64,000 nucleotides of DNA from Thiomicrospira sp. WB1 (GTDB lineage: Bacteria; Pseudomonadota; Gammaproteobacteria; Thiomicrospirales; Thiomicrospiraceae). Below are positions 17,373-59,341 of the stretch, one piece after another. Made by a program: the position numbers and the translations under genes. The stretch spans positions 372,001 through 436,000 of the forward strand of contig NZ_LQBN01000002.1 in assembly GCF_001507535.1 (NCBI RefSeq). Direction: 5' to 3'. The notes beneath the pieces were generated by a model. It was given only the letters and a program-made list of their open reading frames with translations, did not search any database and was not told the DNA's origin. Within the stretch, counting starts at the first letter, position 1, and each line of letters opens with the position of its first letter.

Positions 17373-19558
17373 TTCGACTGCGCTCGCGTCACATCGATGG
17401 AACTCGATACCACGTTTTGAATCTGTTCCAATTGGTCTAATAATTCGCCCAATTGGATGGCCTGATCCAGTTCCACTTCCAGTGTCATACTGACCGAACC
17501 GTCCACCCGGTCGGTTTTGGTATCAGACGACAAAAGGTTGATGTCCCATTGCGTTAATTGCGCCATCACATCCCGCAGAAGCCCTTTGCGGTCAAACGCC
17601 AGCAACTGAATTCTGGCCAGGGTGGGTTCGACCCGTGCCGGTTTCTGCCCGGCCCAGGCCACCTCCAGCAACCGTTTTTGCTCTTCAAATGTCAGATTCA
17701 GAATATTGCCGCAATCCTGGCGATGCACCGTGACGCCCCGGCCACGGGTTACATAGCCGATGATCTCATCGCCCGGCTCCGGGGTGCAACAGGGCGCCAA
17801 GCTGGTTGCCAATTGTGGGGCACCCACCACATAAACCCCACTCTCAGGCATGCCTTCAGGCTTGGTTTCATTTTCCACCGGAGCAGGGCGCGGCACACGC
17901 TTGGGCTCGGCCTGCCGGTTAGGTTGCAGCCAACGCTGAATCGCATCGGTCAACTGACGTTCATTGATCTGGCCTTTTCCAAGGTCTTCAAACAGGGCTT
18001 CCGGGCTGGACAGGTGAAACCGTTCCGCCAGTGTCTGAGCACTGATGTCGGCATTGAGGCGCTTACACTCTTTTTGGAACAACGTCTGACCCGCTTCAAT
18101 ATTGGCGTCTTTGTTCTGTTGGTTAAACCAGTGGCGGACTTTGGTGCGCGCTCGACTGGTGCCGAGATAATGCAGGTTGGGGTTGAGCCAGTTACGATTG
18201 GGGGCCCCGTTTTTGACTGAAAGAATCTCGACCTTGTCCCCGGTCTGAAGCTGGTAGGTTAAGGGTTGGATCTTGCCGTTGATTTTGGCCCCGCGGCAAC
18301 TGTGGCCCAGATTGGTGTGGATCTGGTAAGCAAAGTCCAACGCCGTGGCGCCCTGAGACAGAGTGATCACTTCGTTGTCGGGCGTCATCACATAAATCTG
18401 CTCGCTCAGAAGCTCGGTGCTGATTTCATTGAGCAGGTCGGGATTGTCATTGTATTCAAGCATTTGGCGAACCAGGTTAATGCTTTTTTCCAACCGTTCA
18501 TCCAGACGTTTGCCGCCTTCCTTGTAACGCCAATGCGCGGCCACGCCATATTCGGCATGGTAGTGCATTTCATGAGTACGGATCTGAATTTCCACCGGTT
18601 TGTTGCCATCGCCCAATACCACAGTGTGGATGGACTGATAGCCATTGTCTTTGGGGCTGGCAATGTAGTCATCGAACTCGGGCTTGATGTAATTCCAGTG
18701 GCTGTGGATCACCCCAAGTGCTTCATAACATTCGGACACGGAGTTGACGTAAATGCGTACGGCTCTGAGGTCATAGAGCTCTTCCATGCTCAAATGCTTC
18801 TGGCTCATTTTTTTCCAGATGCTGAAAATGTGTTTGGGTCGTCCGCTGATCTGGCAATCAATGCGTGACTGAGCAAACAATTCACGCAACCGAACCATAA
18901 ATGCATCGATATACGCTTCACGCTGATCTCGCTTGGCATCCAAACGCTTTGCAATATCCTTGTAGGTGTCCGGCATCAGGTAACGGAAGGAAAGGTCTTC
19001 CAGCTCCCACTTCAACTGAGCGATGCCCAGACGATTGGCCAGCGGTGCAAAGACCAGCTGGGTTTCCTGAGCAATACGGTGGCGCGCGTCCGGTGGGGCG
19101 TCTTTCAGATGGCGCAAGCGCACCACACGATATCCAAGTTTAACGATCATAATCCGGATATCGGAGATCATGGCCAGCAGCATCTGGCGCAGTCGTTCGG
19201 TTTGCTCCTCGTTGGTCATGGCCACCGTCTGCAGATCTTTAAACTGATTCAGGCGCCGAATGCCCATCACCAGGGCGGTGACGGTTTTGCCGTAGTGGTC
19301 CAACAAGGTCTTTTCCGGCAAGTGGGTTTCCAACGCCGGGTCACTGAGCAGGGTGGCCATCAGTGTCTCACGGTCCAGCTTTAACTGCGCCAAGGCCCGG
19401 GCCACATCCACGCTGCGCACAGGAAAGGCCTGGCTGGTCGAATCGGCGACCGACAGAGCCCACTGGCAGGCCTCGCGCGCCAGCGCGTCTTCTTCGGATG
19501 TGACCAGATGGGAAAATAACGATTGGTAGAGCTTATCGCTCTGTACTTGTGTGCTCAT
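17360..19558 (-). CDS. relA: (p)ppGpp synthetase, RelA type
   Basis: A 732-residue RelA. Order: degenerate HD hydrolase region (residues about 40-200, lacking clear metal-binding HD residues), synthetase domain (YDLRAVRIYV, then SPKDNGYQSIHTVV and VEIQIRTHEMH), TGS domain (VMTPDNEVITLSQGATALDFAY), a zinc/conserved-cysteine region (CCTPEPGDEIIGYVTRGRG) and an ACT domain at the end. The charged motif ahead of the synthetase loop is EFDD, which marks monofunctional RelA rather than the RxKD of SpoT. It acts on stalled ribosomes, making ppGpp that works together with DksA. No strong ribosome site precedes ATG 19558. Confidence 0.95.
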   Translation of the reverse strand: MSTQVQSDKLYQSLFSHLVTSEEDALAREACQWALSVADSTSQAFPVRSVDVARALAQLKLDRETLMATLLSDPALETHLPEKTLLDHYGKTVTALVMGIRRLNQFKDLQTVAMTNEEQTERLRQMLLAMISDIRIMIVKLGYRVVRLRHLKDAPPDARHRIAQETQLVFAPLANRLGIAQLKWELEDLSFRYLMPDTYKDIAKRLDAKRDQREAYIDAFMVRLRELFAQSRIDCQISGRPKHIFSIWKKMSQKHLSMEELYDLRAVRIYVNSVSECYEALGVIHSHWNYIKPEFDDYIASPKDNGYQSIHTVVLGDGNKPVEIQIRTHEMHYHAEYGVAAHWRYKEGGKRLDERLEKSINLVRQMLEYNDNPDLLNEISTELLSEQIYVMTPDNEVITLSQGATALDFAYQIHTNLGHSCRGAKINGKIQPLTYQLQTGDKVEILSVKNGAPNRNWLNPNLHYLGTSRARTKVRHWFNQQNKDANIEAGQTLFQKECKRLNADISAQTLAERFHLSSPEALFEDLGKGQINERQLTDAIQRWLQPNRQAEPKRVPRPAPVENETKPEGMPESGVYVVGAPQLATSLAPCCTPEPGDEIIGYVTRGRGVTVHRQDCGNILNLTFEEQKRLLEVAWAGQKPARVEPTLARIQLLAFDRKGLLRDVMAQLTQWDINLLSSDTKTDRVDGSVSMTLEVELDQAIQLGELLDQLEQIQNVVSSSIDVTRAQSNQSA

Positions 19559-54887: not shown

Positions 54888-56261
54888 GTGAACCAAAAAA
54901 GCGCCGCACCATTGCAACAGGATGAGTCTTATCTCCTGGGCATCGACTTGGGGACGTCAGGGGTGCGTCTATGCCTGTATCGTTGCCGGGATCAGGCCGC
55001 TGAGGGACTGGCTGTCGCGAATTTTCATGACGCTGACGGTGCCTACGACTGCCCCAAAACCTGGGAGGCGGCTCTCATCCAGGCCTTCTCGTCCCTGCAC
55101 CGGATGCACGGGGGCGCTCTGCGCCAAGTGATCGGCATAATGGCCGATGCCACGTCTTCCAGCGTCTGTTTGAGTCAAGATGGTCGCCCTGTCACTGACT
55201 TTCTGATGTATGACGACAAGCGGGCGCAACCTCAAGCAGAACGCTATGCGGAAACGGCCCCAAACGACAGCGCGGCGCATGGCGCATCCAGCACTTTGGC
55301 CAAAACCCTTTGGTTGCTGGAAAACACCGCTCTTTCGGATCCTGAGCATTCCCATAATCTGCGCATTATGCATCAAATTGATTGGCTGACGCATTGGCTA
55401 ACCGGGCAAACCGACCTGGCCACCGACGCCAACAACGCGCTGAAACTTGGTTTTGACCCAGTGACGAATCAGTGGCCTCACTGGGTTCAAACTGAACTCC
55501 TGACAGATCGCGGAGCGGGTATCGGGATCCTTCCCTCTGTGGTGACACCGGGAACACCGCTGGCACCCATTGCTCCGACCCTCGCTGCCCGCTTTGGCAT
55601 CTCGCCTCAAGCCTGTGTGCACGCCGGCACCACCGACAGCATTGCCGGTTTTTTTGCCACCGGCGCCAGCAAAACCGGGGAGGCCGTCACGTCCCTGGGT
55701 TCCACTCTGGCATTGAAACTGTTGAGCGATCGGCCGGTTTTCGCGCCGCAATACGGGGTTTACAGCCACAAAGTCGGTCCCTGGTGGCTGGCAGGCGGTG
55801 CCTCCAATGCCGGTGGCAACGCGCTGGTTACCCGCTACGGCCTGGACCCAATCAAGCATTGGTGCCAAAAGCCCCTCAGTGCTGCGGACATTCATGACCG
55901 CATCGGCGCTCTGGACTATTATCCGCTTAAATCAAAGGGAGAGCGTTTTCCATTCCAGGACCCGAATAAGTGCCCCGACTTTGAACCGCCCGCCCCGGAT
56001 GCCTTCACGGAGTTTCTGGCCGCGCTGGCAGGCCTGGTAAAAATCGAAGTTCTGGGCTACCAGCGTCTGGCCGAATTGGGCGCGTCATCGGTTCAGTCCA
56101 TCCACAGTGTTGGCGGCGGACTGAAAAACCCGCTGTGGCAGACCCTACGCAAGGAAGCGCTGCCCATTTCAGACATAGCCCCCCTACACGACCAGGCCGC
56201 TTTCGGGGTCGCTCGGCTGTTACACCTTGCCAAAGAGGGCTTTGATATCAGTCAGACGTAG
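54888..56261 (+). CDS. FGGY-family pentulose kinase, D-ribulose kinase-like
   Basis: A 457-residue ATP-dependent sugar kinase. The N-terminal phosphate loop is LLGIDLGTSGVR, and the second catalytic Asp is in AGTTDSIAGFF. VTSLGSTLALKLLSD, YSHKVGPWWLAGGASNAGG and ALDYYPLKSKGERFPF match the plant/cyanobacterial D-ribulose kinase group (AtXK-1, SePSK) better than bacterial xylulokinase, as far as I can judge from memory. It starts at GTG 54888 with AAAGGGAGA upstream. It overlaps the convergent cbbY by 14 bases. A substrate in the ribulose/xylulose group fits both family and context. Confidence 0.8.
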   Translation: MNQKSAAPLQQDESYLLGIDLGTSGVRLCLYRCRDQAAEGLAVANFHDADGAYDCPKTWEAALIQAFSSLHRMHGGALRQVIGIMADATSSSVCLSQDGRPVTDFLMYDDKRAQPQAERYAETAPNDSAAHGASSTLAKTLWLLENTALSDPEHSHNLRIMHQIDWLTHWLTGQTDLATDANNALKLGFDPVTNQWPHWVQTELLTDRGAGIGILPSVVTPGTPLAPIAPTLAARFGISPQACVHAGTTDSIAGFFATGASKTGEAVTSLGSTLALKLLSDRPVFAPQYGVYSHKVGPWWLAGGASNAGGNALVTRYGLDPIKHWCQKPLSAADIHDRIGALDYYPLKSKGERFPFQDPNKCPDFEPPAPDAFTEFLAALAGLVKIEVLGYQRLAELGASSVQSIHSVGGGLKNPLWQTLRKEALPISDIAPLHDQAAFGVARLLHLAKEGFDISQT

Positions 56262-57039
56262 CCTCCGATGCAGCACGCATTAACTGCTCCAACACACTCA
56301 AATTCACATAAGGGTGTTGACGCCCCAGCTCGGCACAACGCCCGCCCAAAACCTGATACGGCGTTTCCGGTTCACCCAGATCGCTCAGGGTCAGCAGCGC
56401 TTTGGAAAAATCATCATCGCGCGTGTAGTCGTTGATGGTAACCAGTGTCGGAACCTGAGCCGCCAAAGCGGAGCGAATACCATTGTCGGAGTCTTCAAAG
56501 GCCAAACACTGTTCCGGCGTCAAGTCCATGTTTCTCAATGTCCAATCATAAATGTCCGGCGCCGGTTTTTTTGCAGGGACAATGTCGCCGGCGGCAATCA
56601 CTTCAAACCACGTCTCTGCGTTCTGTCCCAAAGTATGGGTAAGCAAGGCGGTGACATTGGCCGGTGTCGTGGTGGTGACCACAGCCATGCGAACCCCGGC
56701 GTCTCTGGCTTCATGAATCAGCCGTTCAACGCCTGGACGCAAGGGAATGCGCCCCTCACTTAAAAGCTGGGTGTAAAAGCGGGTTTTGGCCGCATGCAAG
56801 CCTTTGACAAAGCCATCAAAATCACCAGGCCTGGTAAAATCCGTATGAAAGCGATCCAAAAAATAACGAATCCGTTCTTTGCCGCCCGTCACCGCCAGCA
56901 GTTGACCGTACAAGGCTTCATCCCAGTGCCAGTCCAGACCGGCTTCTTCAAACGCCAGGTTGAACGCGACCCGATGACCGTCCTTTTCGGTGTCTGCCAG
57001 TGTGCCGTCGACGTCAAATAATAAGGCTTGCAACGCCAT
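56248..57039 (-). CDS. cbbY: HAD phosphatase CbbY (xylulose-1,5-bisphosphate phosphatase)
   Basis: A 263-residue HAD enzyme. Motif I is LLFDVDGTLADTEKDGHRVAFN, followed by the cap-domain segment DWHWDEALYGQLLAVTGGKERI, which is distinctive of CbbY. Motif II is AVVTTTTPANV, and later VPAKKPAPDIYDWTL and FEDSDNGIRSAL. CbbY removes xylulose 1,5-bisphosphate, a misfire product that inhibits Rubisco. Start 57039 has AAGGAG upstream. Rubisco itself is not in the window. Confidence 0.88.
   Translation of the reverse strand: MALQALLFDVDGTLADTEKDGHRVAFNLAFEEAGLDWHWDEALYGQLLAVTGGKERIRYFLDRFHTDFTRPGDFDGFVKGLHAAKTRFYTQLLSEGRIPLRPGVERLIHEARDAGVRMAVVTTTTPANVTALLTHTLGQNAETWFEVIAAGDIVPAKKPAPDIYDWTLRNMDLTPEQCLAFEDSDNGIRSALAAQVPTLVTINDYTRDDDFSKALLTLSDLGEPETPYQVLGGRCAELGRQHPYVNLSVLEQLMRAASEATSD
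56824..56835. repeat. Iterated palindrome ACCAGGCCTGGT, copy 13
   Basis: Perfect copy inside cbbY. On the coding strand it is read T-R-P-G-D, a third frame usage. The right flank is AAAAT. Confidence 0.95.
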
Positions 57040-57174: not shown

Positions 57175-57203
57175 TTGTCACTGTCTGGAAAACTTGGTAT
57201 AAA
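57175..57203 (+). promoter_or_regulatory. Sigma-70 promoter of the dksA-like gene
   Basis: TTGTCA (57175-57180) and TATAAA (57198-57203) have an ideal 17-base spacer, and TGG before the -10 makes it an extended -10. Start of transcription is expected near 57210, about 58 bases before the gene. Confidence 0.8.
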
Positions 57204-57267
57204 ACGCAGTTAATTTCAACGAAGGCTTTTGCATCGCGCAAAGCTGCGTCAAGCTAAGGAAATCATT

Positions 57268-57696
57268 ATGGGTGATTCAAGCGATTTTATTGAAAATTAT
57301 CCGGCCTACCAGCCCAAACCGGGTGAAGAGTATATGAGCCCCGAAATGTTGGAGCATTTCCGTGAGAAGTTGCTGGCCTGGCGTCGTCAACTGGTGGCCG
57401 AAGCCACCACCACGGTCAGCCATCTGCGCTCTGACTCGTCCACACCGGCCGACCCGAGTGATCGGGCGTCGCAGGAGGAAGAATTTGCTCTGGAGCTGCG
57501 CACCCGCGATCGTGAACGCAAGCTGATTTCCAAAATTGACAAATCCCTCAAAGACATCGAAACCGGTGATTATGGTTTCTGTAAGGTCAGCGGGGATGAA
57601 ATCGGCCTGGCACGCATGGAAGCGCGCCCGACTGCCACCATGACCGTTGAAATGAAAACCAAACAGGAAATGCGTGAAAAACAGGGCATTGCCTGA
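57268..57696 (+). CDS. dksA: DksA-like RNA polymerase regulator lacking most zinc cysteines
   Basis: A 142-residue DksA homologue that binds the secondary channel of RNA polymerase and acts with ppGpp. The coiled-coil tip DPSDRAS (Asp62, Asp65, Ala67) is intact, as is QEEEFALELRTRDRERKLI. The four-Cys zinc finger is not: C105 remains, and the other positions are Ser108, Thr126 and Met129 (FCKVSGDE; TMTVEMK). It therefore resembles zinc-independent DksA2-type proteins. ATG 57268 has AAGGA upstream. A strong promoter lies in front, and the APH-AAA gene follows. Confidence 0.93.
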   Translation: MGDSSDFIENYPAYQPKPGEEYMSPEMLEHFREKLLAWRRQLVAEATTTVSHLRSDSSTPADPSDRASQEEEFALELRTRDRERKLISKIDKSLKDIETGDYGFCKVSGDEIGLARMEARPTATMTVEMKTKQEMREKQGIA

Positions 57697-57727: not shown

Positions 57728-59341
57728 GTGCCGGAACCAACGCCATCGCTGGAACAGAAAATTAAGTATTTGAGCGATCCGGCGGCTTACCCGCACCCCG
57801 TTTCAATGATCACGACCATTGAAACGCACATTTCCATTGTTTTTCTGACCGGTGAATACGCCTACAAACTCAAAAAGCCGGTCGATTTCGGCTTTCTGGA
57901 TTTTTCCACGCTGGCACGCCGTCAACGGTTTTGCCAACTGGAACTTACCCTTAATCGTCGCACGGCCCCGGAACTCTATCTGGACGTCTGTGCTTTATAC
58001 ACCGCCGACCAGGGGGTGAGTCTGACCGCCGAAGGCGATGAACCATGCATTTGTGACTATCTGGTCAAGATGCGCCAGTTTGACCCCAACCAGGTGTTGG
58101 GCAAACAGTTATCCCCCTCCCATCGACTCACGCCTGCGCAAACGCATCAGCTGGCCAACACCATTGCCGACCTCCATATTCAGGCCGAAACCTGCCCGGC
58201 TGAAGCCCCTTATGGCCATCCTGATGACCTGATCCACCCGATGCTGGACAACTTCCCCACCTTGTTGCAAGATCTGAATCACCCCGAAGACCAGTATCGC
58301 TTGCGTCAGCTGGCCGATTGGACACGCCACCGCCAGAAAGAATTATGGCAGGCTCTGATGCAACGCAAACAACATGGCTGGATTCGCGCTTGTCACGGCG
58401 ACTTACACCTGGATAACATCACACTGATCGACCAGACCCCCGTGCTGTTTGATGGCATTGAATTCAATGAACAATTCCGTTGGATTGACCCCATCAATGA
58501 TCTGGCATTTCTCATGACCGATCTGATTCACCGGCGCCAATGGGACATGAAAAATGCGCTGCTCAGTGACTACCTCCAAACCACCGGTGACTATGCGGGC
58601 ATGCTTTTCTTGCGGTTTTACCAGGCTTATCGCGCTTTGGTTCGAGCCAAAATCACCCTATTGCGTCGTCGCCAACTCCCCGCGGAGTCCGATCAGCACC
58701 ACCACCTGACGCAAACGGCCAAAGATTATGTGCGTCAGGCTGAGGACGATGCCTATGACGTGTCACCGCCTCAACTGATCTTAATGCACGGGGTCAGTGG
58801 CAGTGGCAAAAGCACGGTTGCGCGCCGTCTCCTACCTTTTTTTGACGCGACGCCCGCCGTGATCATCAGTTCTGACATCGAGCGCAAGCGTCTCTATGGG
58901 ATCGATCCGACGGCACGCGTCAGTGATACCGAAAAGACAACGCTTTATGGACCGGAAATGAATCGACGGACTTACCAGCGCCTGCATGCATTGGTTGATA
59001 CGTTGCTTGCCAGTGGCTGCCATGTCATTGTGGATGCGACCAATCTCAAAGCCCGATTCCGCGAAGCATTTTTCGAACAAGCGCAAACGCACCAGGCCCG
59101 TTACAAGGTCTGCGGTATCCGTTTTAAAGGTGAAAATGACCAGGCCTGCCTAAAACAGCGGCTGAAACAGCGCGCGCAGGCGAATCACGACCCTTCCGAT
59201 GCCGACGTCAACATCATGACCGGTCAGTGCGCACAGGTCGAAACGCCCGCTGCTCACGAAAATGCCTGGCTGTTCTCGCTTTCTCACATCGACAGCGATC
59301 TTCAGTCTGAAGCCTTTCGTCATTGGTTGGATCACACCTGA
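57728..59341 (+). CDS. APH-like domain fused to an AAA-type P-loop kinase
   Basis: A 537-residue two-domain protein. The N-terminal part (to about 330) is aminoglycoside phosphotransferase-like, with the catalytic loop HGDLHLDNI at residue 223 and DGIEFNEQFRWID as the metal site. The C-terminal part (about 345-537) is a P-loop kinase with Walker A GVSGSGKST at 355-363 and SSDIERKRLYG. The fusion is a known conserved hypothetical family. The substrate is unknown, and an antibiotic resistance role is not implied. It starts at GTG 57728, 31 bases after dksA. Confidence 0.85.
   Translation: MPEPTPSLEQKIKYLSDPAAYPHPVSMITTIETHISIVFLTGEYAYKLKKPVDFGFLDFSTLARRQRFCQLELTLNRRTAPELYLDVCALYTADQGVSLTAEGDEPCICDYLVKMRQFDPNQVLGKQLSPSHRLTPAQTHQLANTIADLHIQAETCPAEAPYGHPDDLIHPMLDNFPTLLQDLNHPEDQYRLRQLADWTRHRQKELWQALMQRKQHGWIRACHGDLHLDNITLIDQTPVLFDGIEFNEQFRWIDPINDLAFLMTDLIHRRQWDMKNALLSDYLQTTGDYAGMLFLRFYQAYRALVRAKITLLRRRQLPAESDQHHHLTQTAKDYVRQAEDDAYDVSPPQLILMHGVSGSGKSTVARRLLPFFDATPAVIISSDIERKRLYGIDPTARVSDTEKTTLYGPEMNRRTYQRLHALVDTLLASGCHVIVDATNLKARFREAFFEQAQTHQARYKVCGIRFKGENDQACLKQRLKQRAQANHDPSDADVNIMTGQCAQVETPAAHENAWLFSLSHIDSDLQSEAFRHWLDHT

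Follow-up and report, generated by a model that had tools for sequence, protein, structure and literature searches.

The only DksA of a Hydrogenovibrio genome lacks three of the four zinc cysteines and most likely derives from a four-Cys dksA at its original locus

The gene at 57268..57696 (plus strand) of the window, which is the whole stretch of 64,000 nucleotides analyzed here (contig C2:372001-436000), encodes a DksA of 142 aa with the residues C105-S108-T126-M129 at the four zinc-ligand positions, and it is the only DksA/TraR-family gene of its genome. We consider, with a probability of about 0.8, that it encodes a housekeeping, zinc-free DksA, which is constitutively expressed and arose when a four-Cys dksA lost its ligands in place, and that type B L31 and L36 have become fixed as well. 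The host belongs to Hydrogenovibrio (Thiomicrospiraceae, a family of sulfur oxidizers), and among named DksAs the one from Hydrogenovibrio halophilus is the closest (97%). What is new is the C-S-T-M motif, fixed in the family, at a dksA1 locus; a zinc-free sole DksA was already known elsewhere.

The 142-aa open reading frame was assigned to DksA by Pfam (DksA_N, E 1.8e-30), by NCBIfam (TIGR02420, 147.5 bits versus a cut-off of 115.5) and by comparison with solved structures. Alignment with E. coli DksA (PDB 1TJL, E 5e-43) placed C105, S108, T126 and M129 at the positions of C114, C117, C135 and C138, showing that the C4 zinc finger defining four-Cys DksA1 proteins is absent from the product. 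The codons of this former zinc module (residues 105-129) lie at 57580..57654 on the plus strand. The earlier note had described a DksA homologue keeping one of four zinc cysteines and having an intact polymerase-acting tip, DPSDRAS; the open reading frame, coordinates, start codon and residues were all verified, and the tip, encoded at 57448..57471 (plus strand), reads ADPSDRAS (residues 61-68). Within it, D62, D65 and A67 of the DxxDxA motif were unchanged across 86 aligned DksAs. The residues R82, K89, R120 and K130 correspond in the alignment to E. coli R91, K98, R129 and K139, which we take to be the ppGpp site-2 residues. Both the tip and the putative ppGpp residues were invariant in 49 family rows.

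The structure of the protein was predicted by AlphaFold2 from an alignment of 86 homologues, and the model showed a mean pLDDT of 87.7, with block means of 94-95 over residues 101-130, which cover the former zinc module. The best PDB matches of the model were E. coli DksA (1TJL, TM 0.90) and P. aeruginosa DksA2 (4IJJ, TM 0.80). By analogy with P. aeruginosa DksA2 and alphaproteobacterial DksA, the globular domain would fold without zinc, with Ser/Thr, Thr and Met/Ala replacing three of the four cysteines; function without zinc and without a bound metal is what we infer from the sequence. The remaining cysteine, C105 (codon 57580-57582), was invariant in 86/86 aligned DksAs, whether or not they keep the other three cysteines, and this would fit a site that is altered rather than lost, in which C105 and other residues still bind metal or serve as a redox switch. 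DksA cysteines are known to act as thiol switches (Henard et al., as described in PMC4370453). However, one Cys plus Ser/Thr/Met or Ala can form neither a Cys4 site nor an intramolecular disulfide, and the invariance of the first Cys arises partly by selection, since the non-family zinc-less rows of the alignment were chosen for carrying it. A retained metal or redox site is therefore unlikely, and weak metal binding by one thiol and other side chains could occur.

The absence of the C4 finger is a trait shared with DksA2, and zinc-less DksA paralogues are under Zur control in Pseudomonas (PMC2770081; PMC9213440). The gene could on this ground be an ordinary DksA2, a reserve for zinc starvation in a genome that has its canonical dksA at another locus. 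The 2.28 Mb, 100%-complete genome was examined by targeted searches, and no second DksA/TraR-family gene, four-Cys or other, was found by protein and family searches. Two sub-threshold PF01258 matches were considered as a hidden second DksA and rejected, because they sit in unrelated reading frames, one inside a TniQ-like protein and the other in a frame that overlaps with an MFS-like gene (both named from sequence reading). The gene thus stands as a single copy, without the coexisting four-Cys DksA that accompanies a DksA2 back-up.

A putative sigma-70 promoter, TTGTCA-17-TATAAA with an extended -10 (TGG), was located at 57175..57203 and a Shine-Dalgarno sequence, AAGGAA, at 57256..57261, both on the plus strand. 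The extended -10 element TGNTATAA is conserved in the family, being present in 51/54 family dksA upstream regions compared with about 2.4 in shuffles; a stock consensus scanner misses this promoter because it demands the final T. The genome encodes Fur and a Zur-like regulator, and in a zur-zrgA-ABC ATPase gene cluster (contig C1 near 191438) zur is preceded by a perfect palindrome, ATGTTATAACAT. Even with one mismatch allowed, no other Zur-box palindrome was found in the genome. No Zur site was found upstream of dksA here, and no Zur-box enrichment was found among the 54 family dksA upstream regions, so that the Zur-controlled promoter typical of a DksA2 back-up is not seen at dksA. Given the missing Zur box and the conserved extended -10, dksA is probably expressed constitutively from the sigma-70 promoter, outside Zur control. 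The earlier note had proposed a strong promoter without a visible Zur-type site and a gene that may be the main DksA; the former holds in substance and the latter is borne out by the genome search, and neither a canonical dksA nor, by sequence, Zur control, the two findings that would have made it an ordinary DksA2, came to light. The lack of any other DksA, together with the lack of a Zur box, supports this gene as the main, housekeeping DksA of the genome.

The same state was observed across the family. The gene was found in 59/63 family genomes, as a single match in 57, and 48 of the 50 good family genomes carry it, nearly all as the sole copy, which also counts against a DksA2 back-up and leaves that explanation with almost no credibility. 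The four family genomes without a match, two of which are at least 90% complete, probably reflect assembly gaps. The other two of the 59 genomes (G059 and G011) have an extra short C4 TraR/DksA-like protein of 115-116 aa (L143:995-1342 and L144:857-1207), encoded directly after a UspA-domain-like protein and seen in these two relatives only. All family orthologues read were CSTM or CTTA and none was CCCC; the CTTA forms came from genera g2 and g4 plus a single g1 genome. Sequencing error, chance or decay was ruled out by the fixation of the motif across the family. Named relatives outside the family, namely Ectothiorhodospiraceae, SUP05/Thioglobus, Marinobacter and Thiotrichaceae, were CCCC, with one CTSA.

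Whether the gene is a dksA1 that lost zinc in place or an incoming DksA2 was assessed from its locus and from a tree. Directly upstream of dksA lies a divergent HAD-family hydrolase gene (56248..57039, minus strand), and a gene of the same position and orientation accompanies four-Cys dksA at 15 CCCC loci, most of them from SUP05/PS1; it also flanks four-Cys dksA in Ectothiorhodospira and others. This common neighbor marks the chromosomal neighborhood of dksA1 and favors zinc loss in place. HAD hydrolases form a large family, which weakens this marker, although position and orientation match as well, with about 50-60% identity in most loci and mostly 42-60% across the CCCC loci. Downstream and co-oriented with dksA is an APH-like/AAA_33 kinase-like gene (57728..59341, plus strand), which is linked to dksA family-wide and is also found near dksA in Marinobacter-type genomes. 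In a DksA tree built without the four zinc columns, the family (99/92) was placed beside the CCCC Pseudothioglobaceae (98/94), nested among four-Cys DksAs. The product also shares more identity with E. coli DksA (about 52%) than with P. aeruginosa DksA2 (about 38-41%). These three observations argue against a DksA2-type gene whose ancestor was under Zur and which took the place of dksA1 and then lost Zur control, even though the CTTA of some family genera is the motif of other zinc-less DksAs and AU tests were compatible with all zinc-less DksAs having arisen once (p 0.33 and 0.58). Because those tests fail to reject a common origin, loss in place rests on synteny and branch supports. Displacement by a DksA2 is quite improbable on this evidence, and the gene is most likely a dksA1 that lost its zinc ligands in place.

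We propose that a four-Cys dksA of an ancestral Thiomicrospiraceae lost its zinc ligands at its own locus, perhaps passing through C-T-T-A first and C-S-T-M later, and is now transcribed constitutively from a sigma-70 promoter rather than under Zur. The product would enter the secondary channel of RNA polymerase and, with ppGpp from two RelA/SpoT proteins, tune the promoters of rRNA and amino-acid genes in the manner of E. coli DksA, a role suggested by the conservation of the key residues. Two RelA/SpoT (RSH) genes are present in the genome, one of them in the window (18512-18844, minus strand; open frame of 733 aa). Zinc-free forms that other bacteria reserve for starvation would here be fixed. 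The DksA zinc site appears to be dispensable in the only copy, family-wide and at the original locus, which would set the core role of DksA apart from its zinc/thiol-switch function, and culturable chemolithoautotrophs are available for asking what the loss of the site costs.

The only L31 of the genome, whose gene sits just after rho (contig C4 near 229305; L149:1501-1752), is of the zinc-less type B, and L31 was zinc-less in 31/31 family members read. The only L36 is likewise of the zinc-less type B (contig C2:459129; L180:1501-1623). Since type B forms of both proteins are common in other bacteria, they are suggestive only as a sign of zinc economy. Together with DksA, they suggest that zinc-sparing proteins may become permanent equipment instead of being kept for emergencies. 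A wider reading, that the whole family permanently dropped zinc from DksA, L31 and L36, with Zur kept for uptake only, as a zinc-economized lineage perhaps tied to zinc-poor sulfidic habitats, is tentative and on balance doubtful. A sulfidic habitat alone is no sufficient explanation, because the sulfur-oxidizing SUP05/Thioglobus relatives keep CCCC.

The family-wide state, the ancestral dksA1 neighborhood and the prior sole zinc-less DksAs of alphaproteobacteria could not be seen in the earlier note. Among the papers searched, none mentioned both DksA and Thiomicrospira. RSP2654 of R. sphaeroides and SMc00469 of S. meliloti, with the residues C-T-x-A, are the main DksAs of their organisms. 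Both are functional DksAs without the C4 zinc finger (PMC9239242); theirs are alphaproteobacterial, whereas the present gene carries C-S-T-M in a gammaproteobacterial dksA1-type locus. P. aeruginosa DksA2 (PDB 4IJJ) shares the zinc-free DksA fold and the retained first Cys (its motif is C-T-C-A) but is repressed by Zur and serves as a back-up to a four-Cys DksA1 (PMC9213440), a difference from the sole copy without a Zur box described here. E. coli DksA (PDB 1TJL, 5VSW) is alike in fold, tip and interface residues but, unlike the present protein, has the Cys4 zinc site. The Chlamydia trachomatis DksA-like protein (PDB 6PTG) has a similar former zinc module, C-S-T-S, and is distant elsewhere (about 30% identity). 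Among 276 class-level genomes, 47 had a DksA-type module whose first pair reads C-x-x-[S/T], a pattern that misses some codons, and about 31 of these 47 had a single DksA match, an approximate count because a second gene may have fallen outside the E-value limits. A zinc-less DksA would accordingly be the sole DksA in roughly a tenth of the sampled gammaproteobacterial genomes.
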